From: a virus
Length of the DNA: 64,000 nt
Virus record (IMG/VR): IMGVR_UViG_3300042540_001399
Location: 124,001-188,000 of that record
Direction: 5' to 3' (one strand)
Part shown: positions 27,808-64,000 of the stretch, one piece after another
Layout of the letters: each line of letters starts with the position of its first letter
Position numbering within the stretch: position 1 is the stretch's first letter
The notes under the pieces: model-generated
The model's database searches: none
What the model was told of the DNA's origin: nothing
Seen by the model: only the letters and a program-made list of their open reading frames with translations
Position numbers and translations under genes: made by a program

Positions 27808-28506
27808 ATGAAAAATAGGCTCATTTTACTTTTTGAACTATTCAAACAAATAGGGGGTACTTCGGCAGATTTAGAAATTATTATGGACCGAAGTTTTATC
27901 GAAGACTGGAATCAAACCGTTTATATAAACTATAATAATTCATCACGAAGAAATGTAAAAATACCATTTTTAATGGTCAAAACTTTGAAAGACTTAGTCA
28001 AAAAGTATGATGATGTTTTTTGGGACTATAATAATTATGATAATGATGAAATTTGGTATTTATTGATTACAATAAATTATATAGAAAAAAAAATAATTTT
28101 TAGAAGTCAGTGTAAAGAAGAAACTTATAATAAATTTAGTCACGACTTTAAAAAAGATGATTTTAGTGAAATAGTACAAAATTATATTTCTGAACTCACA
28201 AATAATGCAAGTGATATTGTTGACTTTGAGTTCTTTGGTAGATGGGATGATGGTGAAATATATAATGTTAATTTGAACGGAAAAAAAAATACGGAATTTT
28301 TCTTGGGAAACGATCATGCTTATTGGGAAATTTGTAATGCCGTTATGGAAAAAATAATTAGCAAATATTGGAATTCAGAACAAGGGGCTACAGGTGAAAT
28401 AAGATTATGGGGTGATGATATTTTTGTTCGAGGTAAAGAATTATTAGAAGAATATCAATGGACTGATTTGAATCTTGTTGTAACACCTGATAACGTTGAA
28501 GATTAA
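27808..28506 (+). CDS. Hypothetical protein, possible distant DUF6878-like, 232 aa
   Basis: Not firmly assigned. The C-terminal half (FFGRWDDGEIYNV ... ATGEIRLWGDDIFV) resembles in layout the better-preserved pattern in the protein at 30779 (YNGGGDSGELESV ... DDGSSGTIYMF), and both recall DUF6878-like proteins. No classical leader, although the start MKNRLILLFELFKQIGG is amphipathic. Function unknown. Confidence 0.5.
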   Translation: MKNRLILLFELFKQIGGTSADLEIIMDRSFIEDWNQTVYINYNNSSRRNVKIPFLMVKTLKDLVKKYDDVFWDYNNYDNDEIWYLLITINYIEKKIIFRSQCKEETYNKFSHDFKKDDFSEIVQNYISELTNNASDIVDFEFFGRWDDGEIYNVNLNGKKNTEFFLGNDHAYWEICNAVMEKIISKYWNSEQGATGEIRLWGDDIFVRGKELLEEYQWTDLNLVVTPDNVED

Positions 28507-28535
28507 ATAATCTTTGAATTTACAAATAAACAATA

Positions 28536-28542
28536 TATTTAT
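28536..28542 (+). promoter_or_regulatory. TATTTAT box (putative late promoter)
   Basis: 13 bases before the ATG at 28556. Confidence 0.5.
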
Positions 28543-28555
28543 TAGAAAAAAATAT

Positions 28556-29098
28556 ATGAAAACTGAAAAATTAGATTTAACAGAAAAATTAATTGAAGAA
28601 TTGAAAAAAAGAAGAATGTTCGAAGCTAAAGAATTCGAAGAAGATGATGATGATGAGGATGATGACGATGAGAATAATGATGAGGATGATGACGAAGACG
28701 AAAATGATGATGAAGATGAAAATAATGATAACAACGAAGACTTTTGTGAAATGGTTTGTAAAATTCTTCACTCAAGAAATCAAGCTCACATATATCACCT
28801 TCAGACACAATCTTTTGCTGAACACAAAGCTCTAAATGATTACTATGATGGTATATTAGGACTATTTGATGCTATTATAGAGTCTTACCAAGGTAAATAC
28901 GGTATAATCAGAACTTATAAGACATTTAAAATTGAACAGTATAAAAATAATAAAAAAACAATTTCTTATTTTGAAAGATTACTGGACGATATAGATAATC
29001 TTAGAGGATCTGTTGAAGATAGTTATCTACAAAATCAAATTGATACTGTTGAAGAATTAATTAACTCAACAATTTATAAACTTAAATTTCTTAAGTGA
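28556..29098 (+). CDS. DUF5856-family protein with an acidic tract
   Basis: 180 aa from MKTEKLDLTEKL, downstream of the TATTTAT box. Residues about 26-61 are almost pure Asp/Glu/Asn. The rest (CKILHSRNQAHIYHLQTQSFAEHKALNDYYDGILGLFDAIIESYQGKYG) matches DUF5856, a phage family with a ferritin/Dps-like four-helix look. The His and Glu residues could bind metal. The acidic tract may mimic DNA or serve as a flexible linker (inference). GTGA coupling to the next gene. Confidence 0.75.
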   Translation: MKTEKLDLTEKLIEELKKRRMFEAKEFEEDDDDEDDDDENNDEDDDEDENDDEDENNDNNEDFCEMVCKILHSRNQAHIYHLQTQSFAEHKALNDYYDGILGLFDAIIESYQGKYGIIRTYKTFKIEQYKNNKKTISYFERLLDDIDNLRGSVEDSYLQNQIDTVEELINSTIYKLKFLK

Positions 29099-29457
29099 AA
29101 CTAGAAATTACAGAAAATGAAAAAAATGATATTTCTTCACATCACGAAGAAATAGACAACATCCTGTTCAATTTTTTAATAAGAAGAGTAAGAATTGAAG
29201 AAAAAAATTTAGGTACAGATTGGTTTGATCAAAAACCGCTTAAAGTTACTGAATATAGATTTGAAGGATTTCCTGGTTATGGGTTTAATAGTTTTTCTTC
29301 TAAAAAAGACATGGAATATAAAATTGTTGAAATGTTGGTTGAAGGAACTGATATGGTTGGTGACTGGTTTTTTGGACCAAACAATGTTAATAATCCGGAA
29401 AGACAAAAATTTATGAAAACAGTAAGAAATTTTTTAAATTTCATTTTGACAAAATGA
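29095..29457 (+). CDS. Leader-bearing virion-type protein, 120 aa
   Basis: GTG start overlapping the previous TGA. The class I-like leader LEITENEKNDISSHH is followed by ILFNFLIRRVRIEEKNLG, then a beta region. The LIRR segment recalls the LRR-motif domain expanded at 49-60 kb, but the rest differs. Not otherwise recognised. Confidence 0.6.
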   Translation: MKLEITENEKNDISSHHEEIDNILFNFLIRRVRIEEKNLGTDWFDQKPLKVTEYRFEGFPGYGFNSFSSKKDMEYKIVEMLVEGTDMVGDWFFGPNNVNNPERQKFMKTVRNFLNFILTK

Positions 29458-29468
29458 AAAAAAAATTC

Positions 29469-29476
29469 TAAATTTG
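29469..29476 (+). promoter_or_regulatory. Possible Bacteroidota-type -7 box TAAATTTG
   Basis: TAAATTTG lies 33 bases before the ATG at 29510. Confidence 0.35.
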
Positions 29477-29509
29477 TTTATTGTTTAACTTAAAATTATA
29501 AAAAAAGAA

Positions 29510-29793: not shown

Positions 29794-30351
29794 CTAATCG
29801 TCCCATTGAGAAGTTACATCTAAATAATTTAAACCAAAATCAAGTTGTATTGTGTGAACGTAACCTTCAATCTCACCACGTAACCAATTTACAACATCCA
29901 AATAAATATCATCATAGTGATCATCCATAAGTTCTTCATAGGTTAATTGTCCATCACTTGTATCAAAAGTACCATTTATAATATAAAAACCAAAATTAAG
30001 TTCACCATCTTCCATGTAGAATTTTTCAAAACTACGGGTAATCATAACCTCGAAGTGGTCATTTGAATAAATATTTTGATCTGAGTTTCTTAGGTCTTTA
30101 TCTGTTACCTTTAAATTTGTAATGTATTGGTCAAAAAGTTCGAAAGCCTTATCCTTACCACCAACAAATTCATAATACCATTTATCAATTTGATCTATAT
30201 ATTTAGATAATTTTTTTCTATATAGATCAACGTAACCTATCCTTGGTATTTCACCTGAATTTACTTGGCGTTCCCATAGATTGAAAAAATACTTTTTTAA
30301 TGTATCCATTTTAGAATCTTCTCTTAATATGGTTTTGATAAGATCTTTCAT
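29794..30351 (-). CDS. Leader-bearing virion-type protein, paralog of the gene at 37266
   Basis: 185 aa. A class II leader (MKDLIKTILREDS, LRE site) precedes LKKYFFNLWERQVNSGEIPRIG, YYEFVGGKDKAFELFDQYIT and FYIINGTFDTSDG. Each part aligns with LKRFFYNKWDKEKNEGKTPSIG, YVEYMGYDSEISKITAIKKYLT and FIVLNGSFYNSEE in the plus-strand gene at 37266. This is one of few minus-strand genes in this zone, driven by its own TATTTAT box. Function unknown. Confidence 0.65.
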   Translation of the reverse strand: MKDLIKTILREDSKMDTLKKYFFNLWERQVNSGEIPRIGYVDLYRKKLSKYIDQIDKWYYEFVGGKDKAFELFDQYITNLKVTDKDLRNSDQNIYSNDHFEVMITRSFEKFYMEDGELNFGFYIINGTFDTSDGQLTYEELMDDHYDDIYLDVVNWLRGEIEGYVHTIQLDFGLNYLDVTSQWDD

Positions 30352-31465: not shown

Positions 31466-31966
31466 ATGAATATTTTAATAACAAAAAGTCAATATGTTAA
31501 CTTGAAAGAAAATCTTGATCAGGTATTAGATTTATATTCAAAAATGAATAGTGGTAAAGAACTTAAACCTTCCGAAAAAGACGTTTTGAGGGCTTTCAAA
31601 AGGTTTACCGACAGGGGAGGTAATCCAGAAGATTTTATATTTGATTTAGAATACATATATGATAATGATGAAAGACAAGGAATGAAGTTTAAATACGATA
31701 TCAAAGGTAAACTTTTTATTTATGAATTCTCAGAAGAAATTGATAAGGGTGATGAAATAGAATACTATGGAGAAGTAAAGTATAACGATGACGAATTCCT
31801 TGGTGTAATTGTAACAGATAAAAGAGGTTATTTGATAACCTACGATTTTTATAGTGTTATAAGTGACCAAGATATAAGATTACAAAACATTTTGAAAAAT
31901 GAAGGTACTGATTCCGAAATACAACATTTTTTCCAAGAAGAAGTTATAAATAGTTTGAAAAAATGA
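31466..31966 (+). CDS. Leader-bearing virion-type protein, 166 aa
   Basis: A class I leader (MNILITKSQYVNLKEN, LKE site) is followed by a short helical unit (QVLDLYSKMNSGKELKPSEKDVLRAF). A similar unit occurs after the leader of the protein at 51091 (DVLDKMSRGEELSQEDKNKM) and resembles the LDKIS...SLTxxEK helix pair of Bacteroidota proteins. The C-terminal part is a beta-rich acidic domain. ATGA overlap with the next gene. Confidence 0.6.
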   Translation: MNILITKSQYVNLKENLDQVLDLYSKMNSGKELKPSEKDVLRAFKRFTDRGGNPEDFIFDLEYIYDNDERQGMKFKYDIKGKLFIYEFSEEIDKGDEIEYYGEVKYNDDEFLGVIVTDKRGYLITYDFYSVISDQDIRLQNILKNEGTDSEIQHFFQEEVINSLKK

Positions 31967-32157
31967 AAATTATTATTACAGAAAAACAAGCAGATAAGTT
32001 GTTTGGAAATAATGTTGAATGTAAAAAATGTTCACACAGTTGGGAAATAGAAAAAAATGATAAAAACCCTTTTCTGTGTCATAATTGTGGGTGGGATCAA
32101 AAAATTAAAAAATATAAAGATAAAGAGTTGTTAAACTTTTGGAAAAAATATGAGTAG
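31963..32157 (+). CDS. Leader-bearing zinc-ribbon protein, 64 aa
   Basis: A class I leader (MKIIITEKQADKLFG) is joined directly to a zinc ribbon, CKKCSHSWEIEKNDKNPFLCHNCGWD, with two CxxC knuckles. This ribbon recurs in marine phage proteins. It may bind nucleic acid or serve as a docking module. It overlaps the large gene that follows by 8 bases. Confidence 0.65.
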   Translation: MKIIITEKQADKLFGNNVECKKCSHSWEIEKNDKNPFLCHNCGWDQKIKKYKDKELLNFWKKYE

Positions 32158-34648
32158 TTTAATTTCGGAAATAAACAGAATGCGAGATTTGATGGGTATT
32201 AAAACTCAAATCAATGAAAACTACTTCAAAAAAAATATTTTGCTTTTGGAAGAAACTGGATATGGTCAAGCCATGGATATTTACAAGGGCATGTTGAAAA
32301 AAGTTGGAATAGAACTTTCAGAGGAAGAACAGAAATATCTTAAAGCTTTTGTCGATGAATTTAACAGAAAATTCCCGTCAGAAAAAATTGATTTTTCTGG
32401 TGGACTAGATAATTTAACAAGAAAAACTTTAAATAATTTTCTGACTAAAGAAACAGAAGAAGTTGTTGGTGAAGTTTTTGAAAGAGCTATAAAAAATATT
32501 GAAGCCGATATTGCTATAAAACAAATTCAAACACCAACAGAAGTTTTAAGAACAAAACTAACAAATAATAATATTTTGAGTTCAGGTGGGGAAGCAAAAT
32601 CCTTGACGGATTACATTTCATTTATTTATCAAAAAGGGGGCGTAAAAAATTCAAACATTCCGCCCGATACATTAACTTTTTTGAAAATGGATTTAGAAGA
32701 AGCGGCAAAAAAATTAGTATCTACAGGAGAAGAAACTGTAAAAAAATATGTTAATGACTTAATAGGACAGATTGATGAATTAGAAGGAACTTCAGTAAAA
32801 ACTATAGATCCCGAAATAAAAAAATCAGTCACTGATTTAAAAACATCTTTAAAACCAGCGGTTGAAACCCAACTTTCGAAAGTAGATATTTCTAATAAAT
32901 TAAAAAGTTTGGCGGATGCAGACCAATCTATGAGATTAGGTAATGAAATGGATGTTGAAGTTGATTTGTCAAATCAAACAGATCTTAAAAACTTAATGGG
33001 TAACGATCCTGAAAGTTTTATTAAAAGTTTAGATTCTATGGAAGACCTTCAAAATGTTTGGATCATTGTTCAACATTCTGATAACGACATAAACTTTCAA
33101 AAACAAATTCTTAGTATACTACAAAAAAATCAACAATTTCTTGAAACTAAATTTACAACAGAAGCATCTCAGATAAAATCGGGAATTGCAATGTTAGAAG
33201 ATAGGGTTATGGTTAATTCGAACACAAGTGTGACAGGATATAGGGAAACTGGAATGGATGATTTTGGGGATTTAACCAAAGGTAAACAAACATATGGTTC
33301 ACAAGGTGGAATGACACCTGACGGTAGTTTTTGGGTCCCAAGACCAATAGAATTAGATGGAAAAATATATTTTTTCGAAACACCTCAAAAACTTTTAGAT
33401 GACACTGAATTTCTGAATAAACTAAACGCAAAAAGAACTTCTATGGGATTATCCAAAATGGAAGATTATTTGAAACTTATGAACGATGAACTTGGTGTGG
33501 TTGATGAATTAGTTGACGATTTGGTTCCTGCACAATATCTACCTAAAAATCTATCGGATAAAACAGTATTTTCGATTTTTTCAAAAAAGGGAATTTTTTA
33601 CTCAGAAGGTATCAATCTTACTAGAGAACTTATTGATAAATTTTTATCTGAATCACAAAAACTTTATGTGGATGCCATTACAAAAAAAGAATTACAGGAT
33701 TACATAACCGCATTAAATTATCTAAAAAATAAATTTGGTAACGGAAAAATATATGTTACTTCACTTTTAGATGGAAAAACAATAGAAAAAAAGACCATAG
33801 GTGAGTTTATTACCGATGTTGAAAATAATTTCAAAAGAATTTATGATGAACAGGGAAATTGGTCTCCTTTGAATAAGTTGGATACAAATTATAACGACAT
33901 GCCCAAAGAGATGACAACCTTTATCAAAACAGTTTTGAATCCTGAAGAATACGAAAATTTTGTAAAAAAAATACAAGATTTTGAAAATGCCCCTGCTAAT
34001 TCAATTGAAAAAGAACAGGCAAAAAAATTATTGGAAGACGAATTTAAAAATATTAAATCAAAACTTTTGACAAATGAAAACTATGTAAAAAATTGGACAA
34101 AAAGAGTTGACGAATTAACCCAATCAATTAAAAATAACAGCGCTTTAGGTAATTTATCAGAAACAAAGGTTAATGAAACTTTAAAAAATAATAATTTCAA
34201 AATTTTATTCACCGCTAGTGATGGATCACCAATTGACGTTTTACTCAATATAGATCAAATTGTAGAAGACACATCAGGAGTTTTTGGTGGTGGTATTAAA
34301 ACGGTTCAGACAAAAACAGCTAACTCAATCCAAGAAGGAAAATTTGTTGGTGTTGGTAAAGACAGAAAATTTGTACCTGAAGAAGGAACGGGCATATTTA
34401 AAGTTGAAATAACGGCAAATAAACGGATTGCGAAACAAAGTCAAATTGACCTTGCTGGGTTCTATGACCCTCAAACAGGTAAAACTTTAATTGTTGGTAA
34501 ACAACCAAAACTAAGTGGAACTTACAATCCGGACGGTACACCTCAGTATCTTTCACAGTTAGAACTACCTGGATCTACAATACCAGTTACAAAATCACCA
34601 ATTAAACCAATTATAATTGACAAAGATACGCCGAAGATCTTCCAATAA
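32150..34648 (+). CDS. Large leader-bearing protein with possible C-terminal nuclease-like fold
   Basis: 832 aa, the longest protein here. A class III-like leader (MSSLISEINRMRDLMGIKTQINEN) ends in an INE site. A mostly helical body follows. At about residues 660-730 LGNLSETKVNETL, GSPIDVLLNID and GGIKTVQTKTA give an E...(I)D...QxK arrangement compatible with a PD-(D/E)XK-like core; this is a weak call. It ends in a Pro-rich tail. It is probably a virion or ejected protein, and structural, scaffold or nuclease roles are all possible. Confidence 0.5.
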   Translation: MSSLISEINRMRDLMGIKTQINENYFKKNILLLEETGYGQAMDIYKGMLKKVGIELSEEEQKYLKAFVDEFNRKFPSEKIDFSGGLDNLTRKTLNNFLTKETEEVVGEVFERAIKNIEADIAIKQIQTPTEVLRTKLTNNNILSSGGEAKSLTDYISFIYQKGGVKNSNIPPDTLTFLKMDLEEAAKKLVSTGEETVKKYVNDLIGQIDELEGTSVKTIDPEIKKSVTDLKTSLKPAVETQLSKVDISNKLKSLADADQSMRLGNEMDVEVDLSNQTDLKNLMGNDPESFIKSLDSMEDLQNVWIIVQHSDNDINFQKQILSILQKNQQFLETKFTTEASQIKSGIAMLEDRVMVNSNTSVTGYRETGMDDFGDLTKGKQTYGSQGGMTPDGSFWVPRPIELDGKIYFFETPQKLLDDTEFLNKLNAKRTSMGLSKMEDYLKLMNDELGVVDELVDDLVPAQYLPKNLSDKTVFSIFSKKGIFYSEGINLTRELIDKFLSESQKLYVDAITKKELQDYITALNYLKNKFGNGKIYVTSLLDGKTIEKKTIGEFITDVENNFKRIYDEQGNWSPLNKLDTNYNDMPKEMTTFIKTVLNPEEYENFVKKIQDFENAPANSIEKEQAKKLLEDEFKNIKSKLLTNENYVKNWTKRVDELTQSIKNNSALGNLSETKVNETLKNNNFKILFTASDGSPIDVLLNIDQIVEDTSGVFGGGIKTVQTKTANSIQEGKFVGVGKDRKFVPEEGTGIFKVEITANKRIAKQSQIDLAGFYDPQTGKTLIVGKQPKLSGTYNPDGTPQYLSQLELPGSTIPVTKSPIKPIIIDKDTPKIFQ

Positions 34649-34790: not shown

Positions 34791-34797
34791 TATTTAT
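34791..34797 (+). promoter_or_regulatory. TATTTAT box (putative late promoter)
   Basis: 14 bases before the ATG at 34812. Confidence 0.5.
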
Positions 34798-34811: not shown

Positions 34812-35537
34812 ATGAAAATTAAAATTACGGAAGATCAATTCCAAAGACTTTTGGAAAACAAATTAAATGGTAACCAAATTAATGAAGGCGTTTTCGGTAT
34901 ATTAGGAAAAATTGCTAAGTACGCTTTAGGTGGTGCGGCAATTTCATATATATTAAAAAAACTAATAGATAAGTTCAAGGATAAAGAACCTACAAAAGCG
35001 GAAGTAGAAAAAGAAATTGAAAGACTTGGAAATGATGTAAAAAAATCTGAAGAATCAGAATCCAAAATAGATAATAAAAACATAATAATAGGAGATTCAC
35101 AAGTACCTTACATTGATATGAATACAAAAAAGGCCAGTAAAATATCAACCAAAGGTGGTGAAGAATCTTTGTGGTTAGGTGGTGTTGGGTTAAACTGGTT
35201 AAAAAACGCAGTTAGAAATTATAAAACGGATAATACAGTCAAAAATGTAATAATCAGTATTGGGACTAATGGTGGTTTTAACACTAATGAAGATATTAGT
35301 GGATTATTTGATAATTTGAAAAAAACATTTCCTAAGGCAAATTTTTATGTTGTACAAGGATCATGGGGATGGGGTGGAAACAAAGACATAGAACAATCTG
35401 AAGTTGATAGGTATTACAGAGTCTTCAAAAACCAAGGGGCAACAATTATAGAACCACCTATAGGTAAAGTTTCGGACCCACACGGTGATTTATCTGTTTA
35501 TGGTGAAATAGGTAAAAACATCGATTCCAAACTATGA
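34812..35537 (+). CDS. Leader-bearing SGNH/GDSL-type hydrolase
   Basis: 241 aa. The class I leader MKIKITEDQFQRLLENKLNGNQINEG ends in a strong INE-G site. A hydrophobic Gly-rich helix (GILGKIAKYALGGAAISYIL) and a charged linker follow. The hydrolase part has block I NIIIGDSQ (nucleophile Ser at about residue 96), GGVGLNWL, block III VIISIGTNGG, and a C-terminal SDPHGDLS with Asp222 and His224. SGNH enzymes hydrolyse esters such as acyl or acetyl groups on glycans. A virion-borne deacetylase acting on host polysaccharide during entry is a reasonable inference. ATGA overlap with the next gene. Confidence 0.7.
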   Translation: MKIKITEDQFQRLLENKLNGNQINEGVFGILGKIAKYALGGAAISYILKKLIDKFKDKEPTKAEVEKEIERLGNDVKKSEESESKIDNKNIIIGDSQVPYIDMNTKKASKISTKGGEESLWLGGVGLNWLKNAVRNYKTDNTVKNVIISIGTNGGFNTNEDISGLFDNLKKTFPKANFYVVQGSWGWGGNKDIEQSEVDRYYRVFKNQGATIIEPPIGKVSDPHGDLSVYGEIGKNIDSKL

Positions 35538-36004
35538 AAAAACCTAATGTAAAAATGTTGATAGAAAATCGGAATATTTACGACTATCAGTTCGGATTTT
35601 GTCATTACTTCGCCACAAATATTAAAGATAAGTTACAGGAAATTCTTTCACATAAAAAAGTTACTTATTATTTGATTGTTTCCGAAGAACTGGTAATTGA
35701 CACCAATGAAATTATTGAATATCATCTAATTCACGTTTATTTAAAAGTAGATGAATATTTTTTAGATTCAAAAGGAATACACGGATATGATGATGTTATT
35801 TCCAAAATAGAAAAATATGAAATGGAAGCGATTAAATATCTTCCTGACTTCATGGAACTTACAATAAAAGAAGGTGAATCAGATATCATACCCAATTTAT
35901 TTTTTGATGACAACGAATGTGATCAAGTACAGGTAAAAAAAGACGTTGAAGAATTTATGTCTAATCCTGAAATAAAAAAATTCATAAAACAAATGAAATC
36001 ATAA
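35534..36004 (+). CDS. Possible cysteine-peptidase-like protein, 156 aa
   Basis: Starts MKKPNVKMLIENRNIY. A FGFCHYFATNIKDKL segment is followed by EYHLIHVYLKVDEYFLDSKGI. The Cys ... His ... Asp order with small spacing resembles papain/NlpC-type cysteine hydrolases, as does the HVYL/FLD strand pair. This is inference from motif order only. Coupled to the SGNH gene; ends convergently with the next gene, overlapping by 6 bases. Confidence 0.5.
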   Translation: MKKPNVKMLIENRNIYDYQFGFCHYFATNIKDKLQEILSHKKVTYYLIVSEELVIDTNEIIEYHLIHVYLKVDEYFLDSKGIHGYDDVISKIEKYEMEAIKYLPDFMELTIKEGESDIIPNLFFDDNECDQVQVKKDVEEFMSNPEIKKFIKQMKS

Positions 36005-36891: not shown

Positions 36892-37266
36892 ATGAAAGTT
36901 CTGATAATGGAAAATCAACTAATATCTACAGTTCAAGGAATGGTAGATAATACAATTGACGAGTTCACAAAAGATTGTGAAAATATAGACGCTGAAAATG
37001 GGCCACCATATTTATCATTTGATGACTGTGATTTATTGGATAGTCTCGAAGAACTTGAAATTGTAGAAGTAACAAAAAGTGATCAAAATAAAGGTAAGTA
37101 CTTACTTTTCGACGCAAAGGTTAATGTTTATTATAGGAATGTTTTTGAATATCAGGACTATAGTAATTTTTTACATAGTTTAAGATTAAGAATAAAAGAA
37201 AAATATAAAATAACTGTGATGTTTACTGTTGCTGATGAAGTAAATAATCAACCAAGAGAATGGTAA
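36892..37266 (+). CDS. Leader-bearing virion-type protein, 124 aa
   Basis: A class I-like leader (MKVLIMENQLISTVQ) is followed by an acidic segment, then YLLFDAKVNVYYRNVFEYQDYSNFLHSL (strands and a helix). Not recognised. Its stop shares a base with the next start (TAATG), showing tight coupling with the two following leader genes. Confidence 0.55.
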   Translation: MKVLIMENQLISTVQGMVDNTIDEFTKDCENIDAENGPPYLSFDDCDLLDSLEELEIVEVTKSDQNKGKYLLFDAKVNVYYRNVFEYQDYSNFLHSLRLRIKEKYKITVMFTVADEVNNQPREW

Positions 37267-37883
37267 TGAAAGGTATTATTAGACAAATATTGAATAACGA
37301 AATTAAGAATAATTTATATGAAGGAAAACCTTCAAATTATAAAAATATAGAACAACTTAAAAGATTTTTTTATAACAAATGGGATAAAGAAAAAAATGAA
37401 GGAAAAACACCATCAATTGGGGATATATCCAAATTAGGGTTGAATAGGGCTAAAGATCAAATAATTTCCTTATATGTTGAATATATGGGTTATGATTCTG
37501 AAATTAGTAAAATCACCGCTATTAAAAAATATTTGACATCGAATATTTTCACTGAAAAAGACATTACAGAAATGGATAATTTTAGTGAAGGTAAAATAAC
37601 TGTAAAATTTGATAAAGTTGATTTTTCCGAATATGAAAGTGATCGTGACAATGTTATGGATTTAGATGTTAGTTTTATAGTTCTTAATGGATCCTTCTAT
37701 AATAGTGAAGAAGACGAAATATATAACTTTTCAACTGGAAATAACCCATTTGATGACTTTGTTACATATTTTGAGTTTAAAGAAGAAATTGAACAGATTG
37801 TGGAAAGTTTTGTTCACAGAACAATAGAAAATTTTGGATTAGATATAAACCGTAATTTTGATTATATAAGTGTTAAGTGGTAA
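37266..37883 (+). CDS. Leader-bearing virion-type protein, paralog of the gene at 29794
   Basis: 205 aa from MKGIIRQILNNE (class II leader). The TAATG junction sets the start at 37266 rather than two codons earlier. It shares three aligned blocks with the minus-strand protein at 29794 (FFYNKWDKEKNEGKTPSIG; EYMGYDSEISKI; FIVLNGSFYNS). Function unknown. Confidence 0.6.
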   Translation: MKGIIRQILNNEIKNNLYEGKPSNYKNIEQLKRFFYNKWDKEKNEGKTPSIGDISKLGLNRAKDQIISLYVEYMGYDSEISKITAIKKYLTSNIFTEKDITEMDNFSEGKITVKFDKVDFSEYESDRDNVMDLDVSFIVLNGSFYNSEEDEIYNFSTGNNPFDDFVTYFEFKEEIEQIVESFVHRTIENFGLDINRNFDYISVKW

Positions 37884-38383
37884 TGAAAAAAATCATAAGA
37901 AATATACTACATGAAGAAAATAAAAATAGTCGTTTATTATCTGATATGATAGAAAATGAAGGTCTTCTTATGACATGTAAAAAAGTTGGTGGTATAGAAA
38001 GGTTATCAAAAATTTTAGGTGTAAGAGATTATAAAATAGTTGAAAATTATTTTGTTGGAAGACAAATATCAACAAATAATTTTGAATTTCCATTAGAAGT
38101 TGGGGGATATGATTTTGTTTTTGAAGTAACCCATGTTAATTATGACTTAACTGACGATTTTATGGAAATAAGATTCAAAATAGTAGAAGGGGAAGTCACA
38201 CTTATAATGACAACGGATGAAACTTATGATCTTTTAGGTGATGATCTAAAAGAAAATGAATATTTGGTTTGGGAAATAAGATATGAAGTTAGGGAGGTTG
38301 TACGTGAATATTTCAAACTATATTTTGAATATATTAGATATAGATTATTTAGCGGTTTAGATGTTGAAGTAACAAATATGTAA
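37883..38383 (+). CDS. Leader-bearing protein with 'KxVGG' module
   Basis: 166 aa from MKKIIRNILHEE (class II leader, LHE site); TAATG coupling fixes the start. LLSDMIENEGLLMTCKKVGGIERLSKILGV aligns with modules in the proteins at 41705 (GIVTAAKAVGGINNVTKILDI) and 49195 (GLKKASKAVGGMVRLLKILDL). The module looks like a helix-turn-helix unit of about 30 residues. The rest is beta-rich and acidic. Confidence 0.6.
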   Translation: MKKIIRNILHEENKNSRLLSDMIENEGLLMTCKKVGGIERLSKILGVRDYKIVENYFVGRQISTNNFEFPLEVGGYDFVFEVTHVNYDLTDDFMEIRFKIVEGEVTLIMTTDETYDLLGDDLKENEYLVWEIRYEVREVVREYFKLYFEYIRYRLFSGLDVEVTNM

Positions 38384-49950: not shown

Positions 49951-49955
49951 TTGAG

Positions 49956-50297: not shown

Positions 50298-50311
50298 CAT
50301 AATTATATAAT

Positions 50312-51840: not shown

Positions 51841-51841
51841 T

Positions 51842-52249: not shown

Positions 52250-52250
52250 T

Positions 52251-53531
52251 ATGAACCTACAAGAATCCATAAGAAGAATATTAAGGGAAGATTTGTTAAA
52301 TAAATCAAAATTCTTTCTAAGAAGAATTAATTTAGATGAGGTTAAAAAATTACTTCCAATCAACGCAGAACAAGTACATGGTGAAACAAAAAGTTATGAG
52401 CAATTCAAGTATGAATTAACTTTAAGAGCCGTGGAGGCAATTATGTGGAATGATTATGAACTCGGGTGGGAAGATCTACCAGAACAAGAGGAAATAGAAT
52501 TTGTTAATGAAGTTTCCAACATGTTTAATAAAACAATCAAAAAGTTATATAATTCTTATAGTGGAAGAATATTAAGGGAAGAAGATTATTCTCCGGCGGG
52601 TAAAGAAATAATACCAAATAAAATTGTGATCCACAAGTCCAATCCGATCTTCAGAAATAAGATAATGGAAAATGGTCTTAAAGTAAGGGCAGGAGAATGT
52701 TACAAAATATATGTTGGTTATGGTGTTAAGTGTAAACCTGCAATTTTTGCAACCAACTCAACGAACAAAAGAGCATGGTTTGATTCAACATACGACGATG
52801 ATATATGGGAAATAAATACAGAAATGATTCCTGATGTAAAGTGGTATAAAGATAGACACTTTGAGTCAAGGTCAAAACATATTGTTACGTTTCAAGACAT
52901 ACCAAAAGAAGCAATAACTTTAAAATATGAAGGAAGTGGAAGTGGAGATGTAGAAAAGTGGGATAAAGATTCGCCAAACATAGTTAGAGAATCCCAAATA
53001 GACCCTTATCTTCTAAGAAGATTTCATGAGTTCGACGACACTTTCAAATTGGTATCATCAAATGTTTATCCATGTGATTTCAGACATCCACAACATTATT
53101 GGAATTACACGATAGAAAGAGTACTGGAAGCTATTTATTTTAATTTTTTCTATGAAACTAAATCCGAATTAAATTGGGAGTCCCTTTCTGATGAAATTCT
53201 TTATCTTCTAAATAGAACATATTATGATGAATTAGTTTCAGACTGGGAATCCAAGTGTAATAATAATATTCATGAAGATTTTTCACCTGAGTTTTTAAGA
53301 AGAATAACTATAATTGATACGTTAATTGACGCAACCCTTTCTTCTATGTACCCATGTGAATATAGTTCTGAAAAAGCTTTTCTTCGTGGTTTATACGACG
53401 AATTATATTGGTCATTTATAGGGGAAGACTTAAAAATTATTGACTATTCAGATATTATTGATTTTATAGAAGAAAACAGAAAAGAAGACATATATGATTA
53501 TTGGGACGAATATTGTGTTCGATTATCATAA
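52251..53531 (+). CDS. Leader-bearing multidomain protein: LRR-motif, ART-like, two more LRR-motif domains
   Basis: 426 aa. The leader MNLQESIRRILRED mixes classes III and II. LRR-motif domain 1 (FFLRRINLDEVKKL, about 20-105) is followed by an ADP-ribosyltransferase-like segment (about 115-235: IVIHKSNPIFRNKIMENGLKV, AIFATNSTNKRAWF, IWEINTEM, HIVTFQDIPKEAITL). Domain 2 (PYLLRRFHEFDDTF...VYPCDF) and domain 3 (EFLRRITIIDTLID...MYPCEY) complete it. The ART-like call rests on layout (H...S, strand order), not a proven active site. A fused virion effector is a reasonable hypothesis. Confidence 0.6.
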   Translation: MNLQESIRRILREDLLNKSKFFLRRINLDEVKKLLPINAEQVHGETKSYEQFKYELTLRAVEAIMWNDYELGWEDLPEQEEIEFVNEVSNMFNKTIKKLYNSYSGRILREEDYSPAGKEIIPNKIVIHKSNPIFRNKIMENGLKVRAGECYKIYVGYGVKCKPAIFATNSTNKRAWFDSTYDDDIWEINTEMIPDVKWYKDRHFESRSKHIVTFQDIPKEAITLKYEGSGSGDVEKWDKDSPNIVRESQIDPYLLRRFHEFDDTFKLVSSNVYPCDFRHPQHYWNYTIERVLEAIYFNFFYETKSELNWESLSDEILYLLNRTYYDELVSDWESKCNNNIHEDFSPEFLRRITIIDTLIDATLSSMYPCEYSSEKAFLRGLYDELYWSFIGEDLKIIDYSDIIDFIEENRKEDIYDYWDEYCVRLS

Positions 53532-53650: not shown

Positions 53651-53974
53651 ATGTCACTTAAAAAAATAATTAGAAAAGTATTGATTCAAGAATCGGGAAA
53701 CATAGATCCTTACATACTTCGAAGACTTGATTTAGATAAGTTCAATGATCTCTTAGATAAAGGAAAAGTATATATGTTTTATGAATCCAATTCATTAGAA
53801 GAATTCAAATGGAAGTTAGTTACGGCAACATTAGAAAACTATCATTACTACAAGTATGAAACTGATATAGATACAAGTGATGGATATTTCGATCAAACAA
53901 TACAAAGTCTTATCAACTTATTTGAGCCCAAGTTAGAAACTATTTATAACAGATTAAAAAATGAAAGAGGATGA
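53651..53974 (+). CDS. Leader-bearing LRR-motif domain protein, 107 aa
   Basis: The class II leader MSLKKIIRKVLIQES (IQE site) is joined to one LRR-motif domain (DPYILRRLDLDKFNDLL ... LEEFKWKLVTATLEN ... LFEPKLETIYNRL). ATGA overlap with the next LRR-motif gene. Confidence 0.6.
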   Translation: MSLKKIIRKVLIQESGNIDPYILRRLDLDKFNDLLDKGKVYMFYESNSLEEFKWKLVTATLENYHYYKYETDIDTSDGYFDQTIQSLINLFEPKLETIYNRLKNERG

Positions 53975-56812: not shown

Positions 56813-57526
56813 ATGGAACTAAATAGATTTAAACAATTATTGGAATCAAGCTTGGGGGATGTTAGACCACTTATATCTGAACAAGAAGTAAAAGATTTTT
56901 CAGCTCAGATTTTTGAAGAACTAAAAACAAACGGATTTACAATATCAAATGTAAACGCCAATCTTGTTCAAGCGTCAAAGGCGTCACTTACACTTTTATT
57001 TCAAGTACAGGTTGATAAGCAACAACAGAAATATTATAGACTAATTGAAATAGATTATATGTTGGCGGTTGATCCAAATAATGAAGGGATTTCACCTGAG
57101 TTATTAAAAACATTTACAGGTGTGGGTGCCAGTGGGGAGTACATTGGTCCTGTTTATTCTAAACCAACAGAAGAAGATAAAGAGTTTTTAAAAACTTTAT
57201 CCAACAAAGATAGGAACATGATGACCAATAGTGGACCTACAGAAAAAAGAGCAGGTTTTAAAATGTGGAAATCTAATCTTGGGGGTCTTGATCTTACGAC
57301 TTTGGGACAATCAAAAGAAACCACAAGTATATACAAGTACATGAAAGATTTTTATGCTTTGGGTGTTACCGCACAAAAATATCAAAACTTTAATAGTGCT
57401 AATTTTGCAGGTCAAGTTAAGATTGTTGGTCAGGAATTAAAATCGGCAGCCGCTCCTATGGTTGACAAGGCTAAACAAGGAATACAAAATCTGGCATCTA
57501 AGGTCAAAGGAAAACTACAACGTTAA
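56813..57526 (+). CDS. Class IV leader protein, 237 aa
   Basis: The leader MELNRFKQLLESSLGDVRPLISEQ ends in an ISE-Q site and is almost the same as that of the gene at 60624. The payload is alpha/beta (LTLLFQVQVDKQQQKYYRLIEIDYML), then GASGEYIGPVYSKP and a long amphipathic C-terminal helix region (APMVDKAKQGIQNLASKVKGK) that could bind membrane or DNA. No enzyme motif recognised. Confidence 0.65.
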   Translation: MELNRFKQLLESSLGDVRPLISEQEVKDFSAQIFEELKTNGFTISNVNANLVQASKASLTLLFQVQVDKQQQKYYRLIEIDYMLAVDPNNEGISPELLKTFTGVGASGEYIGPVYSKPTEEDKEFLKTLSNKDRNMMTNSGPTEKRAGFKMWKSNLGGLDLTTLGQSKETTSIYKYMKDFYALGVTAQKYQNFNSANFAGQVKIVGQELKSAAAPMVDKAKQGIQNLASKVKGKLQR

Positions 57527-57886: not shown

Positions 57887-58213
57887 ATGAAAATTATTAT
57901 AACGGAAAGACAATATAATAAAGTAATTGTTCTAAGAAGAATTAATGAAATAATGCATGAAGCCTTGTTAATGATTAGGGATGATGGGGCTTTTTATGGT
58001 GACGTAAACTTTTGTTATCATTACCCCACATTTGAAGGTTTTATGGAAGATATGGTTGAGGAAATTATTCGCAATTATGAATATTTTAATAATTTCGACA
58101 TATCGGATTTTATCTATGATGAAGTTGGTTTTGAAAACTTTATTAACATATTGATTGATGTTCACGGTGATGAGATTAGAGAGTTCTATAACTCAAAAAC
58201 AGAAGATTGTTAA
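57887..58213 (+). CDS. Leader-bearing LRR-motif domain protein, 108 aa
   Basis: The start MKIIITERQYNKVIVLRRINEIMHEAL follows the TATTTAT box (the ATG at 57863 lies before it). A class I leader is fused directly to an LRR-motif domain with CYHYPTFEGFMEDMVEEIIRNYEYF, ending FYNSKTEDC. One base from the next related gene. Confidence 0.6.
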   Translation: MKIIITERQYNKVIVLRRINEIMHEALLMIRDDGAFYGDVNFCYHYPTFEGFMEDMVEEIIRNYEYFNNFDISDFIYDEVGFENFINILIDVHGDEIREFYNSKTEDC

Positions 58214-58214: not shown

Positions 58215-58544
58215 ATGAAAATCATTATCACAGAAAATCAACTATTTCTTATTAGACGGCTACAACAATTTGTTGATCTTGTTGAAGATCAGATTGATGG
58301 GTACGAAAGAAATGAAGATGGTGCTTGGTGGTGTAAATATAATACCCCCGATTCTTTTTTAGAAAATTTTAGAGATAGATGTATCGAGGAGTTTGTTAAT
58401 AACAATTGGGAATTCTTTCATGATAACAGTGAAAATGGGGGATCTAATATGGATATAAGTTTATTATATAATATTGTTGATCAAGATTACGGGAACTATA
58501 TTAAAAATCTTTTTGTTCGTAAGTGTAATTATTATCGTTATTAG
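58215..58544 (+). CDS. Leader-bearing LRR-motif domain protein, 109 aa
   Basis: MKIIITENQLFLIRRLQQFVDLVEDQIDGYERN. A class I leader runs straight into the LIRR motif, followed by WCKYNTPDSFLENFRDRCIEEF. It is a tandem duplicate in design of the preceding gene. The start one base after the previous stop is preferred to the ATG at 58155. Confidence 0.6.
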   Translation: MKIIITENQLFLIRRLQQFVDLVEDQIDGYERNEDGAWWCKYNTPDSFLENFRDRCIEEFVNNNWEFFHDNSENGGSNMDISLLYNIVDQDYGNYIKNLFVRKCNYYRY

Positions 58545-59388: not shown

Positions 59389-59395
59389 TATTTAT
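59389..59395 (+). promoter_or_regulatory. TATTTAT box (putative late promoter)
   Basis: 5 bases before the ATG at 59401. Confidence 0.55.
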
Positions 59396-59400: not shown

Positions 59401-60021
59401 ATGAAAATCATTGTTACCGAATCACAGTTAAGACGATACCTTGTTAAAGAATCTACAGAAGAATCTGTTGATTTGGAAATGAATCAATCAATAGACACAA
59501 CAATAAATGAACTACACCCCAACGTTATTCCAAAATTCCAAAAATTAGTAAACGCGTGGAAAGCTAAGGGATACAAATTTAAAATTACCGACGGATTTAG
59601 AACATTTGATGAACAAGAAAACGAATTCCAAAAAGGAACTAGTAAAGCTCGTGGTGGTCTTGGGATTCACAATTATGGTCATGCGATTGATGTTTATATG
59701 TGGAATGGAAAAAATTGGGATAAACCATCTGACGCAATGTTAAAAGTTGCCGTGAACAATGGTTTTGAATCATACGGTCTTTCTTGGGGTTGGGATTTTT
59801 ATCACGTACAATATACAAAAGAATTCACAGGTCAAAAAGGTGGTGATGCTAATTTCATAAAAAAATACGGAAAACAATTAATCGATTCTTATTCCAAAAT
59901 TTCATCTGAAGACAAAAAGAAAATGAAAAAAAATATTGACGCTAAATTTAAACAGGGGAATGGCGGTTACAAAGATTTAATTAATAAATGGTTGGACTTA
60001 TATAGCCCCTTCAAAGATTAA
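59401..60021 (+). CDS. Leader-bearing M15-family peptidoglycan peptidase (endolysin-like)
   Basis: 206 aa from MKIIVTESQLRRYLVKES (class I leader); a start at 59347 would lie before the promoter and in the terminator. The M15 peptidase core has ITDGFRTFDEQENEFQKGTSKARGG, HNYGHAIDVYMW (His90, Asp97) and WDFYHVQY (His135), the zinc ligands of D-Ala-D-Ala carboxypeptidase/L-Ala-D-Glu endopeptidases. A C-terminal helical region of about 50 residues follows. With a virion leader it may open peptidoglycan at entry rather than act as the lysis endolysin. Confidence 0.8.
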   Translation: MKIIVTESQLRRYLVKESTEESVDLEMNQSIDTTINELHPNVIPKFQKLVNAWKAKGYKFKITDGFRTFDEQENEFQKGTSKARGGLGIHNYGHAIDVYMWNGKNWDKPSDAMLKVAVNNGFESYGLSWGWDFYHVQYTKEFTGQKGGDANFIKKYGKQLIDSYSKISSEDKKKMKKNIDAKFKQGNGGYKDLINKWLDLYSPFKD

Positions 60022-60623: not shown

Positions 60624-61130
60624 ATGGAAACAAATAGATTTAAACAACTTTTAGAATCAACTCTTGGAAATGTTAAACCATTAATTTCTGAACAAAGAGT
60701 AAACCAATCATCAATTCAAACAGTTGAACAATATGTTGTAAAATGTCTTACAGACATTAACAATTTCATTTTAAAAACAAACAAGGAACAAAAGAAAAAT
60801 GTACCAATAATTAAATATACCGTTAAAAGAATGAATGTTGCCGCTGATCCATCATACGGGACAAGACAAACTGTAGAAGTTCCTCAATATACCTTGATGA
60901 TAAACGGAGTACAGGCACCCGCACAATTAGATTTTGGTGTTTATTTAAATAACCCAAATACTTTTTTTAGAATTTGGAAAGATACTTTAGGTAATACAGA
61001 TTGGTTATTGAAAAACATCAAAGATACGCAAATTCTTCCTATAATACAAAATATAGATAAAAAATACTACGATTTATCTTTTAGAGCAACGCAGCAAGGT
61101 AACAAACAATCCCCTGTAAAAAAACCATAA
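60624..61130 (+). CDS. Class IV leader protein, 168 aa
   Basis: The leader METNRFKQLLESTLGNVKPLISEQ nearly matches that at 56813, but the payload is different: IIKYTVKRMNVAADPSYGTRQTVEVPQYTLMINGVQAPAQLDFGVYLNN, then FFRIWKDTLGNTDWLL. The payload is beta-rich, ending in a basic tail. No family recognised; the pair shows leader conservation with payload divergence. Confidence 0.65.
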   Translation: METNRFKQLLESTLGNVKPLISEQRVNQSSIQTVEQYVVKCLTDINNFILKTNKEQKKNVPIIKYTVKRMNVAADPSYGTRQTVEVPQYTLMINGVQAPAQLDFGVYLNNPNTFFRIWKDTLGNTDWLLKNIKDTQILPIIQNIDKKYYDLSFRATQQGNKQSPVKKP

Positions 61131-61454: not shown

Positions 61455-62093
61455 ATGAAAAACTTTATAATAACTGAATCAGAAAAACAAAGAATTTTAG
61501 AAATGCACCAAAGTGCAACGTCAAGACAATATTTAAAAGAAAATGAAGATGAATGGATAGACATGTCAAATGATATGGAAACAGAATCAGATTTTTCAAT
61601 GATAGATTTAAAAAATGACAGAAATTTCAAAAGATTGGTTTCATTTCTTAAAAGAAATCCTGATGCCGCTATGGATATCAAAAATTCTTTAGAAATGAAT
61701 ATCAATGAGGCTCAAAAATACTATGATTATAGTGATGATCGTGGAAAAAAAGAAATTACTAGAAATCAGTATCTTAAAAGAAAACTAATTAATTATGGTA
61801 TATTTGGATTATTAGGGGCTGCAATTGGTGCAACAATGGGAGCCATGGCTGGTGACCAAGTTTTAGAAGCCGCTCTTCTTATGGCTGGAATGGGTGGTAC
61901 CGTGGGAGCGGAACTTGCTGGTCAGATTGGTAGAGAAAGAGTCAAAGACGAACCACCAACAGACGAAACTTCGATAGAAGATGACGAAACATTAAGTGAA
62001 CGTTGGTCACAAAAATACAAAAGATCAATAGATTGTAATAACCCAAAGGGTTTTTCACAAAAAGCCCATTGTCAAGGTAGAAAAAAAAGATAA
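61455..62093 (+). CDS. Leader-bearing glycine-zipper protein with 'SIDCNNPKGFSQKAHC' tail
   Basis: 212 aa. The leader MKNFIITESEKQRILEMHQSA is followed by YLKEN (LKE site) and an acidic region. About residues 113-155 form a Gly/Ala-rich zipper (YGIFGLLGAAIGATMGAMAG and AALLMAGMGGTVGAELAGQIG) able to insert in membrane. The C-terminal SIDCNNPKGFSQKAHCQGRKKR is a motif I know from the C-termini of many phage hypothetical proteins. A membrane-pore or ejection role is a plausible guess. Confidence 0.65.
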   Translation: MKNFIITESEKQRILEMHQSATSRQYLKENEDEWIDMSNDMETESDFSMIDLKNDRNFKRLVSFLKRNPDAAMDIKNSLEMNINEAQKYYDYSDDRGKKEITRNQYLKRKLINYGIFGLLGAAIGATMGAMAGDQVLEAALLMAGMGGTVGAELAGQIGRERVKDEPPTDETSIEDDETLSERWSQKYKRSIDCNNPKGFSQKAHCQGRKKR

Positions 62094-62096
62094 ACC

Positions 62097-62126: not shown

Positions 62127-62133
62127 TATGTAA

Positions 62134-62140
62134 TATTTAT
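62134..62140 (+). promoter_or_regulatory. TATTTAT box (putative late promoter)
   Basis: 13 bases before the ATG at 62154. Confidence 0.5.
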
Positions 62141-62153
62141 AAAATAAAAAATT

Positions 62154-63056
62154 ATGAAAAAAGTATTTAAAAAAATTAGTAAGTTGTTTTCCAAAAACAA
62201 AACGGTATCGGTAGATCCAAATACAATCGAAGGTGTGATTGTAAGCACACTTAACACAATTATTCAATCACCACAAGTACAGGACATGACATTCAAAGTG
62301 TCTTCGTCTTGTGATAAAACATCTGTTTTAAACGACATTGAATTTTGTAACGAAGTTTATGTTCACGATAAATATACTTGGAGTGTTGTTGATGATGCTT
62401 GTATTGATGCTTGTAATGTGGCATATGACATTTGTCATGGCGGATGCTCTGCGATAGATTGGACATGTAATAACTGTTGTACTAAAGAATGTAAACAAGG
62501 AAGAGATGCTTGTAAAAGTCTTTGTGGTTATTTAGATATGACAGGAGGTTACGAGTTCAGACTTATGAACATAAAAGGTGTTGGTGGTATTCAAGTAACA
62601 AATGTATATGATATGATACCAAAGTCTGATGTAGATAACGTATTTAGTATTACTATGGATTTAAATGTTCCAAAAGTTACCGCTCAGGCATATTATAAGA
62701 TTTGGCAAGACCCTATTCCTGCTATGACTGGAACAATTCCTGTGGTTGCATCTAATGTTACAGGAAAAGCAACCGGAACTTTAATTATTTCTTGTGATGA
62801 AAATAATCCTTCTGAATCAGGTTACTATTTACATATTGACACAATAGAAATTAACATACCTAAAAATGTATTTGATTCAAATATTTTATTAACTGCGGTG
62901 TCTATCTTTGGAATGGACATTCAATACTTAACAGGTGGTATTGTTGATCTTGATCAAATGTTGTTAGATTTAGCGGACGGTGAGTTGGCAGATGTTGTTG
63001 TTGATGTCTTAAACGATATTTTGGATGATTATAAATTAATGGATGCAAATTGTTGA
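62154..63056 (+). CDS. Cys-rich protein with possible lipid-binding-like C-terminal domain
   Basis: 300 aa. A basic start (KKVFKKISKLFSKNKT) is followed at about residues 53-125 by about 15 Cys, clustered as DDACIDACNVAYDICHGGC, CNNCCTKECKQGRDACKSLC. The C-terminal ~170 residues are alternating strands (YEFRLMNIKGVGGIQV; FSITMDLNVPKVTAQAYYKI; GTLIIS; YYLHIDTIEINI) plus a final amphipathic helix, reminiscent of TULIP (BPI/takeout-like) lipid-binding folds. This is inference from pattern only. No leader and no signal peptide, which is odd for so many Cys. Confidence 0.5.
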   Translation: MKKVFKKISKLFSKNKTVSVDPNTIEGVIVSTLNTIIQSPQVQDMTFKVSSSCDKTSVLNDIEFCNEVYVHDKYTWSVVDDACIDACNVAYDICHGGCSAIDWTCNNCCTKECKQGRDACKSLCGYLDMTGGYEFRLMNIKGVGGIQVTNVYDMIPKSDVDNVFSITMDLNVPKVTAQAYYKIWQDPIPAMTGTIPVVASNVTGKATGTLIISCDENNPSESGYYLHIDTIEINIPKNVFDSNILLTAVSIFGMDIQYLTGGIVDLDQMLLDLADGELADVVVDVLNDILDDYKLMDANC

Positions 63057-63059
63057 TAA

Positions 63060-63548
63060 ATGAAATCCAAATTAGAAAGTCTAAATGATACTAGTTTATC
63101 AAGATATCTTAATTATGTAAAAAACGCATTATCTAATGTTGTTGATATTGAAACGATAGAATTCACTGAATTTTATGAAAAATTAACTTATGATCTTGAT
63201 TTAGAAAGAAAAATTTTTTCCCCAATAAGAGGTGGTGATAGGTATGATGTAGAATACATCTTTGCATGTTTTTCATTAAATAATTACGGAAATAATAATT
63301 TCGACCCGAATGATTTAATGAGACCTGATCAGAAAGGGTTTACAGTTAACTATATGCTAGATGAAAGAGAATTAACTAGACGAACCTACAGGATAAAGAT
63401 GGAAACTTATCTTACGCGAAGAGATTTTGACACATCATATCTTTGGCAACTTAAAAATGAAGACGAAATCGATCCATGGTCATGGGAACATGTTGACACA
63501 GATTATTTGGATAGTGATTTTGTGGATGATGATTTTGATATACATTAA
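63060..63548 (+). CDS. Hypothetical protein, 162 aa
   Basis: Not recognised. Helical N-terminus (SLSRYLNYVKNALSNVVDIE), a middle with RGGDRYDVEYIFACFSLNNYG, and a very acidic C-terminus (DTDYLDSDFVDDDFDIH). Three bases after the Cys-rich gene, so probably co-transcribed. Confidence 0.55.
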   Translation: MKSKLESLNDTSLSRYLNYVKNALSNVVDIETIEFTEFYEKLTYDLDLERKIFSPIRGGDRYDVEYIFACFSLNNYGNNNFDPNDLMRPDQKGFTVNYMLDERELTRRTYRIKMETYLTRRDFDTSYLWQLKNEDEIDPWSWEHVDTDYLDSDFVDDDFDIH

Positions 63549-63559
63549 AATTTTATATT

Positions 63560-64000
63560 ATGAAGTTTATTATAAATGAAAACCAATTTGCCGGATTAAG
63601 ACAGAAACTTAGAAATTCAATTGAAACGGTAGGTGTATACGAAACTTTGAGAAGGTATAATATTACATTAAATATTTTATCGGTAATCTTCGATGGGAAC
63701 ATGCCTGACACATCTTGTTATGATTTGTATGAATTAATTAGAGTATATCTAAGACAAAAAAAGTTCAAAGAAAAAACTTATAAAAATTTGACATTTAAGT
63801 TTAGCTTCGATTCTATGGGTGGGGTTTTAGAATTTGAATGTGAAGATAAAATAAAAAATGATTTTGTAACAGCGTTTGCTACACCATATTGGGATGGAGA
63901 GTGTCACCTTCCAATAGATTTTCAATATTTTGGTTTTATTGGTGGAGGACCAGAATCCGAATTTGAAATAAGTGGTGATTATTTCTACATTGAAGATTTA
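63560..64000 (+). CDS. Leader-bearing virion-type protein (3' end outside window), paralog of the gene at 16733
   Basis: 147 codons open to the window edge. The leader MKFIINENQFAGLRQKL is followed by IETVGVYETLRRYNITLNILSVIF, matching the protein at 16733. FATPYWDGECH aligns with YAQPFWEDKKI there. Truncated by the window, not by a stop. Confidence 0.6.
   Translation, partial: MKFIINENQFAGLRQKLRNSIETVGVYETLRRYNITLNILSVIFDGNMPDTSCYDLYELIRVYLRQKKFKEKTYKNLTFKFSFDSMGGVLEFECEDKIKNDFVTAFATPYWDGECHLPIDFQYFGFIGGGPESEFEISGDYFYIEDL

Follow-up and report, generated by a model that had tools for sequence, protein, structure and literature searches.

Internal Proteins and Leaders of Described Phages

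The internal proteins (IPI-III) and Alt of bacteriophage T4 carry an N-terminal propeptide of 10-20 residues, the capsid-targeting sequence (CTS), that is cut at [L/I]xE (PMC5694885, PMC9026906). Ip1-3 have nothing but this leader in common (PMC12373910). Alt is cut at both ends, at ITE-6 and LTE-619 (PMC5694885), and once injected modifies RNA polymerase (PMC9026906). A similar arrangement, with five classes of short leaders, is found in a 64,000-nucleotide stretch (the window; positions 124001-188000, 29.7% G+C) of IMGVR_UViG_3300042540_001399, a virus record of 290,887 bases, from a giant phage whose host group is very likely Bacteroidetes. Unrelated mature parts, a protease of the gp21 family and a gp23 capsid are common to the two systems. 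T4 has a handful of cargo proteins and one leader type, whereas here 34-35 cargo proteins occur in the window, with five interchangeable leader classes and reusable C-terminal modules. The leaders are in all likelihood capsid-targeting propeptides of a greatly expanded T4-type internal-protein system whose cargo would be packaged, trimmed and ejected. For T4, such proteins and the leader they carry have been described before (PMC12373910, PMC9026906); what is new here is the unprecedented scale.

Giant phages of the phiKZ/SPN3US type offer a second likeness, in that propeptides are removed from the N-termini of virion cargo by a prohead protease (here predicted). The propeptides of SPN3US are mostly longer than 100 residues and are cut at A-x-E (PMC5694885), whereas those in the window have 8-25 residues and [I/L/V]xE. 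The bS21 freshwater Bacteroidetes jumbo phages (Chen et al. 2022, PMC9723584) have the same bS21 position, genome size and gene order as the phage described here; a search by terms turned up no mention in it of leaders or packaged cargo. Among open-access journal papers, a search found no account of such an expansion for Bacteroidetes jumbo phages, and no mass spectrometry on virions of Flavobacterium phage immuto. On sequence evidence, the system would operate as the T4 CTS/internal-protein system does, with which it has the defining machinery in common. Since the leader sequences are not homologous to the T4 CTS, it is classed as a variant and not as a member of the T4 internal-protein family.

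Leader Classes

A preliminary description of the window had reported at least 30 unrelated proteins with short N-terminal leaders of four classes (I-IV). A position-specific scan gave about 31 leader proteins in five classes, and further ones found by eye or by orthology bring the number to 34-35; every leader listed earlier lies within a few codons of the start given for it. All four classes are present, but a fifth, class V (MKRIVRLTESDLARIVRRVIREE at 40718; pattern LTESDLxRIVxRV), had been overlooked. The cargo proteins named in that description are likewise present, while those at 1032, 32150, 35534, 39452, 40718, 41705, 47417 and 49947 had been missed. As it had claimed, most leaders contain or end in [I/L]xE, the one at 49195 being an exception, and in general the conserved payload begins directly after an [I/L/V]xE. 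The genome total, estimated from the stretches read, is about 45 leader genes: besides those in the window, they go on beyond its right edge to ~199 kb of the record, and the head-gene region holds 3-4 more. Profile searches of the whole record showed class I and II leaders to be concentrated at 130-188 kb and almost absent elsewhere.

When residues 2-21 of the 80 window open reading frames (ORFs) of at least 100 residues were scored all against all, 65 pairs reached at least 30 and 13 pairs at least 40. The same scoring yielded 3-10 and 0-1 such pairs with internal or C-terminal windows of the 80 ORFs, and 5-7 and 0 with shuffled N-termini. A larger sample combined proteins of the window with those of relatives. 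Among its 595 non-redundant proteins, picked partly via class III with no selection for the remaining classes, class patterns occur within the first 30 residues 55, 50, 18 and 14 times (3.0, 0.4, 0.4 and 0.4 expected).

Class III is conserved from M1 to an E at position 18/19 and stops abruptly thereafter; positions 16-19 are not covered by the DNA pattern with which the sequences had been selected. In 41 of 42 class III leaders with MMG, [ILVMT]xE occurs 3-5 residues past the G, also outside the selecting pattern. The exact class III pattern was found at 54 IMG/VR loci, on 61 non-redundant payloads including close variants, and class I in at least 120 stretches, with 83 non-redundant payloads in the loci retrieved. 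A tblastn search of isolated phages with a 20-residue class III leader gave zero matches.

Prohead Protease and Capsid

The preliminary description had suggested looking in the rest of the genome for a gp21-like prohead protease and for capsid proteins that share the leaders' cleavage consensus; both are there. A gene for a Peptidase_S77 protein (the T4 gp21 family; E 1.4e-23) retains the catalytic His85 and Ser140 of gp21. It belongs to a T4-type head cassette of TerL, portal, bS21 (reverse strand), protease, an acidic scaffold-like protein and a gp23-type capsid protein. The pro-region of the capsid protein ends ENQASFLINE/ATSE (the slash marks the predicted cut), aligned with SFLTE/A of T4 gp23, so that LINE/A falls on FLTE/A. 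Leaders and capsid pro-region end in the same motif. Elsewhere the capsid junction reads [FHY]LINE/A (close relatives), QLVTE/T (a second capsid type), QIVSE/A (immuto) and QLLKE/A (the huge phage LR756508). Because the leaders end exactly at the expected cut of the phage's own maturation protease, the cargo is probably loaded into the head, trimmed there and delivered with the DNA.

The acidic protein between the protease and capsid genes has 585 residues and no PHROG match. The bS21-like ORF (61 residues, assigned by reading) lies on the minus strand at ~256.8 kb of the record (L002:12810-12995), and its reverse-strand position between portal and protease places the phage among those described as bS21 Bacteroidetes phages in PMC9723584. 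A 268-kb contig, G002, of locus L012 has two S77 and two gp23 genes of differing types (L075, L076), which may mean two head cassettes or else an assembly that is chimeric.

Leader Swapping

The junction site usually immediately precedes the conserved payload across orthologs with different leaders. For example, the YMFFSNLEQM protein encoded beside the capsid gene has a class V leader ending RKVVNE/S or a class II leader ending KQVLRE/D, and also KKVLKE/T and RKVLQE/Q. The junctions of g18699 read IILE/A, ILKE/A, VIRE/A and NLNE/T, and those of cap6815 IVKE/A, IIKE/A, RLNE/A and IVRE/A. Classes II and III are swapped on the YKSYH protein and classes I and III on a pterin dehydratase; a class I/II swap was also found. 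The ParB/sulfiredoxin-like cargo, which in the window (51842..52249) has a class III leader (...MMGLLTE/G), bears either class III or class I with E19/G20 invariant; the class I copy reads LQKE/G, which is not a strict site. Its ortholog L021_8151 has a class I leader and an additional C-terminal module, module A (see below). The protein of the haloacid dehalogenase (HAD) type encoded at 48716..49198 (class III, ...MMGIIVE/N) has a homolog in immuto, the NT5C-like gp087, with a different leader, starting MKKVMGNLADLLLE/ESD. Immuto, a cultured relative, encodes a few proteins with leaders of this kind, gp083 among them.

C-Terminal Modules

Two basic, cysteine-containing modules, A and B, end some of the cargo proteins. 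In the window, module A (CWKGYTQKGMKTMFGKKYPNCVKIKK, 48224..48301, directly after ITE-R) ends the DUF2237 cargo at 47417..48304, whose leader is MGLNESIYRIIRE/E, and module B (WSQKYKRSIDCNNPKGFSQKAHCQGRKKR, 62004..62090, directly after LSE-R) ends a cargo protein at 61455..62093 with class I leader MKNFIITESEKQRILE/M. Others are found in L021, L019, L012, L035, L014, L037 and L049. Module A occurs in 11 distinct copies, each of them behind [LI]TE-[KR], and module B is preceded by LSE, LTE or IIE. One protein has A and B in tandem, with LTE or ITE ahead of each. A zinc ribbon considered as a common C-terminal module was dropped; the shared stretches proved to be A and B.

Both modules are also found in T4-like cyanophages, with best matches of 60-87% identity. 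In S-SCSM1_29, S-SM2 SSM2_109 and P-SSM2 gp114 they stand behind E-rich linkers, as here. The cyanophages string many modules together in one long protein encoded beside the terminase gene, whereas here single modules are attached to separate enzymes that also bear N-terminal leaders. The S-SCSM1 protein containing module A is annotated as a virion protein, and 45 virion proteins of this phage have been identified by mass spectrometry (PMC9602691). The list includes an NMN adenylyltransferase that starts MKSFLQFLKE/AAESG, a T4-style leader. The authors noted that such proteins might be carry-over (PMC9602691), which makes this support but not proof.

An Upstream Element

The heptamer TATTTAT occurs within 60 nucleotides upstream of 15 of the 16 window leader genes with upstream space of their own, versus 1 of 17 controls from the first half of the window (Fisher P = 2.5e-7), and mostly begins 11-13 nucleotides before the ATG. 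The lone positive control, 1032..2414 (TATTTAT at -12), is itself cargo. Its product, assigned by reading as a putative DHH-like phosphoesterase, has a short leader (MKKGILVE/SGIRD), and an ortholog with 58% identity in the relative locus L098 bears a class I leader, MKIIITESQYKMLINE/SGIRD. In relatives TATTTAT precedes 65 of 74 leader genes, 40 of 180 non-leader genes and 6 of 76 operon-internal leader genes (P = 7e-23).

In head cassettes the element precedes the scaffold gene (7 of 7) and the protease gene (6 of 7). It is located at -11..-13 or at -20..-24 in the window and in L079-L084. TATTTAT is probably a late promoter; a position at -12 would leave transcripts with a very short 5' untranslated region or none. 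As a promoter of every head gene it was ruled out by the capsid gene, and it was retained for scaffold, protease and g12091.

Proposed Mechanism and Alternatives

The enlarged T4 analogue proposed in the preliminary description is supported by the S77 protease and its co-occurrence with leaders in relatives, the capsid site, the leader swaps, TATTTAT and the homology to cyanophage proteins detected by mass spectrometry. In such a system, leader proteins would be made late in infection from promoters common to the scaffold and prohead-protease genes, and the leader, as an amphipathic helix, would dock the cargo into the prohead core. Cutting by the S77 protease after [I/L/V]xE, as in the capsid protein, would follow, and leaders would depart and DNA be packaged. 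Once freed, enzymes, regulators and small binding proteins would remain in the head, be ejected with the DNA and act as immediate-early takeover or anti-defence factors. The C-terminal modules behind [L/I]TE or LSE may be a further tag removed by cleavage, comparable to the C-terminus of T4 Alt. The sequences themselves show the leaders and their swapping, the junction motif, the protease, the corresponding capsid site and the TATTTAT held in common. Packaging into virions and cleavage of the leader-bearing proteins are strongly inferred from them, and scaffold binding and ejection would be further steps; injection of the cargo into the host would follow by analogy.

Several points weigh against this interpretation. 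The phage is uncultured, and its virion cargo is predicted from sequence. The leaders resemble T4 propeptides in pattern (gp24 MAKINELLRE, gp22 MLKEQLIAE), but sequence homology is absent. The motif [ILV]xE is built into the definition of some class cores, and the N-termini are so rich in E and I that shuffled composition alone gives it at a frequency of 0.60, compared with 0.99 observed. Several leaders have 2-3 candidate sites, so that the exact cut is ambiguous, in class I above all. The scaffold label of the acidic protein is based on gene order and acidity with no family match, and TATTTAT is absent upstream of the capsid gene in relatives. Among 43 leader-bearing contigs tested, S77 is present in all 22 that carry gp23, which, as the two genes travel together in T4-like phages anyway, is a weak test that gave no counter-example. 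The 20 S77-less contigs tested were themselves set aside as counter-examples because they look like fragments: an HK97-type Pfam capsid is absent from all of them, and the single one with a T4 portal has it at the contig end.

The leaders could also target the prohead core while the cargo serves head assembly, as core proteins or DNA-neutralising peptides, or is lost and not delivered. T4 IPIII does influence head assembly (PMC9026906), and the C-terminal modules are basic and similar to DNA-binding peptides. We nevertheless consider this rather unlikely: the payloads are host-facing enzymes and regulators, among them M15, Ntn, DUF2237 and DHH proteins in the window and a sigma factor, ART-PolyVal, GNAT, kinases, chitinase, pterin dehydratase and HD proteins in relatives, and repertoires differ between close relatives. 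An address other than the head (replication compartment, membrane or tail), with [IL]xE as a by-product of E-rich amphipathic helices, would agree with the prediction of the leaders as short helices and with the many sites that composition alone yields. It is made improbable by retention of the junction E across leader swaps, by the matching capsid site, by C-terminal modules that also sit behind [LI]TE or LSE, and by a TATTTAT common to scaffold and protease genes.

A function of the conserved 5' ends at the level of DNA or RNA, either as a translation-initiation element for ribosomes with the phage-encoded bS21 or in recombination, with the peptide as a by-product, is very improbable. Class III does show a strong synonymous bias in codons 2-7 (AAC CTA CAA GAA AAC ATA, e.g., at 48306, 48716 and 50312), as though the leader DNA itself were copied or under constraint, with ATA for I7 in 46 of 47 and a preference for CTA at L3 and AAC at N2. 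However, codon entropy showed synonymous variation in codons 8-20 at background level with the residues still conserved, the other classes and the swapped leaders preserve protein features and not DNA, and operon-internal copies are retained. A bias limited to codons 2-7 may reflect leader DNA that was copied recently from one gene to another, more than any role of the RNA. Ordinary paralogous families with a common N-terminal domain would account for one family of 7 (LRRxD-type) and one pair among 34 window proteins. For the set as a whole such paralogy is scarcely credible: there are 27 payload families, similarity ends at [ILV]xE, classes I and III are spread over 83 and 61 non-redundant payloads, and clearly different folds (DUF2237, Ntn hydrolase, M15, HAD) are represented.

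A broader scheme can be put forward tentatively, at somewhat less than even odds: a general plug-in delivery in jumbo T4-like phages of Bacteroidetes, in which interchangeable N-terminal leaders and cleavable C-terminal tags load dozens of effectors per virion (in relatives also sigma factors and ADP-ribosyltransferases), leader DNA is copied to recruit new cargo, and a takeover proteome is injected before phage gene expression. The signature of leader class, [I/L/V]xE junction and upstream TATTTAT would predict virion-riding, first-acting proteins among the unknowns of uncultured jumbo phages. Where T4 has a handful of cargo genes, candidates here number ~45 in a single genome, and relatives together supply well over 100 distinct payloads. 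These would provide candidate anti-defence and host-takeover proteins as well as natural packaging tags for protein delivery.

Cargo Proteins of the Window

The payloads had been described as unrelated, which is the case for most: apart from the LRRxD-type family and the pair, the 27 families are single. Of the names first given to them, only three were borne out by sequence models, i.e., DUF2237 at 47417 (E 2.7e-38; TATTTAT at 47406..47412), a C45/AAT-type Ntn hydrolase at 46225..47166 (1.5e-10 in NCBIfam, below the family cut-off; class II leader MKNLIRSILNE/E) and an M15/VanY peptidase at 59401..60021 (7.9e-7; class I leader MKIIVTESQLRRYLVKE/S; TATTTAT at 59389..59395). The HAD/NT5C-like protein is supported by homology to an immuto protein annotated 5'(3')-deoxyribonucleotidase; SGNH and the window ART were unconfirmed. 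The ParB-like name rests on a predicted fold, and the modelled resemblance of 51842 to sulfiredoxin/ParB is borderline. In the AlphaFold model of this protein the only segment with a predicted local distance difference test score (pLDDT) below 50 is residues 1-21, i.e., the leader. The predicted structure of 50312 (mean pLDDT 44) was of insufficient confidence and was not used. Sequence searches of the PDB with four cargo proteins gave no convincing match, and a PHROGs search of cargo and tail-side genes no match.

The remaining leader genes are on the plus strand with one exception. Class I leaders begin the cargo proteins at 6482..7738 (MKTFILTEKQFDKLSKKLISE/A; TATTTAT at -13), 16733..17362 (MKFLLKESQIDSL; -11), 31466..31966 (payload homolog L015_10449 has class V), 34812..35537 (MKIKITEDQFQRLLENKLNGNQINE/G; TATTTAT at 34791..34797), 36892..37266 (MKVLIMENQ; -13), 57887..58213 (MKIIITERQYNKVIVLRRINE/I), 58215..58544 (MKIIITE/NQ) and 63560..64000, which continues past the window edge (MKFIINE/NQ), as well as a zinc-ribbon protein with a weak DUF5817 match (31963..32157; MKIIITE/KQ). 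LRR-type cargo at 29095..29457 has a class I-like leader, and its ortholog L015_7214 has class II. Class II is found at 29794..30351 on the minus strand (MKDLIKTILRE/D; TATTTAT at -13; payload a paralog of 37266), 37266..37883 (MKGIIRQILNNE), 37883..38383 (MKKIIRNILHE/E), 38431..39426 (MKNIIRDILKEETFLISE/I; the sole one of the 16 without TATTTAT) and on LRRxD-type cargo at 53651..53974 (MSLKKIIRKVLIQE/S).

Class III had been assigned to the genes at 48306-52251, and most are members: 48306..48716 (MNLQENIQRIKEMMKINHSFLNE/S), 50312..51094 (...MMGLVTE/V) and 51091..51840 (...MMGIINE/N) besides the HAD and ParB-like proteins. Two LRRxD-type proteins there differ, 49195..49950 having a degenerate class III leader with no usable site and 49947..50297 a leader, MIEVNKKEFIKRLLRE/N, that is not class III. 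Class IV occurs at 56813..57526 (MELNRFKQLLESSLGDVRPLISE/Q) and 60624..61130 (METNRFKQLLESTLGNVKPLISE/Q), and class V at 40718..41143 (MKRIVRLTESDLARIVRRVIRE/E). Further leaders are those of an 832-residue protein at 32150..34648 (MSSLISEINRMRDLMGIKTQINE/N; homolog L051 has class III), of cargo at 35534..36004 (MKKPNVKMLIE/N), 39452..40666 (MNLKNELLRIAQLSKKIIGE/G; TATTTAT at -11) and 41705..42145 (MNKVKNIVKIIVE/S; -13), and of a multi-domain LRRxD-type protein at 52251..53531 (MNLQESIRRILRE/D).

A paralogous family marked by [FIL]LRR[x]D, either at the N-terminus or behind the leader, is found at 49195, 49947, 52251, 53651, 53971, 56348, 57887, 58215, 60269 and 29095; some of its members are leaderless. 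The scaffold-like protein carries a similar motif, INILRRFD, close to its C-terminus.

Cargo in Relatives

The cargo repertoire varies among close relatives. It includes sigma-70-type factors, ART-PolyVal, GNAT, GH19 chitinase, pterin dehydratase, HD proteins and P-loop kinases. The sigma factors and ADP-ribosyltransferases recall T4 Alt. For example, L034:4140-4685 encodes a protein with sigma-70 regions 2 and 4 behind a class I leader, MKIIITESQRKILTE/G, and is a candidate for a virion-packaged sigma factor. The 484-kb uncultured phage LR756508 (L008) has a consensus of its own, MKLTERRLRKIVKEEIxxVLxE, on ~20 proteins in a 50-kb region with the head genes.

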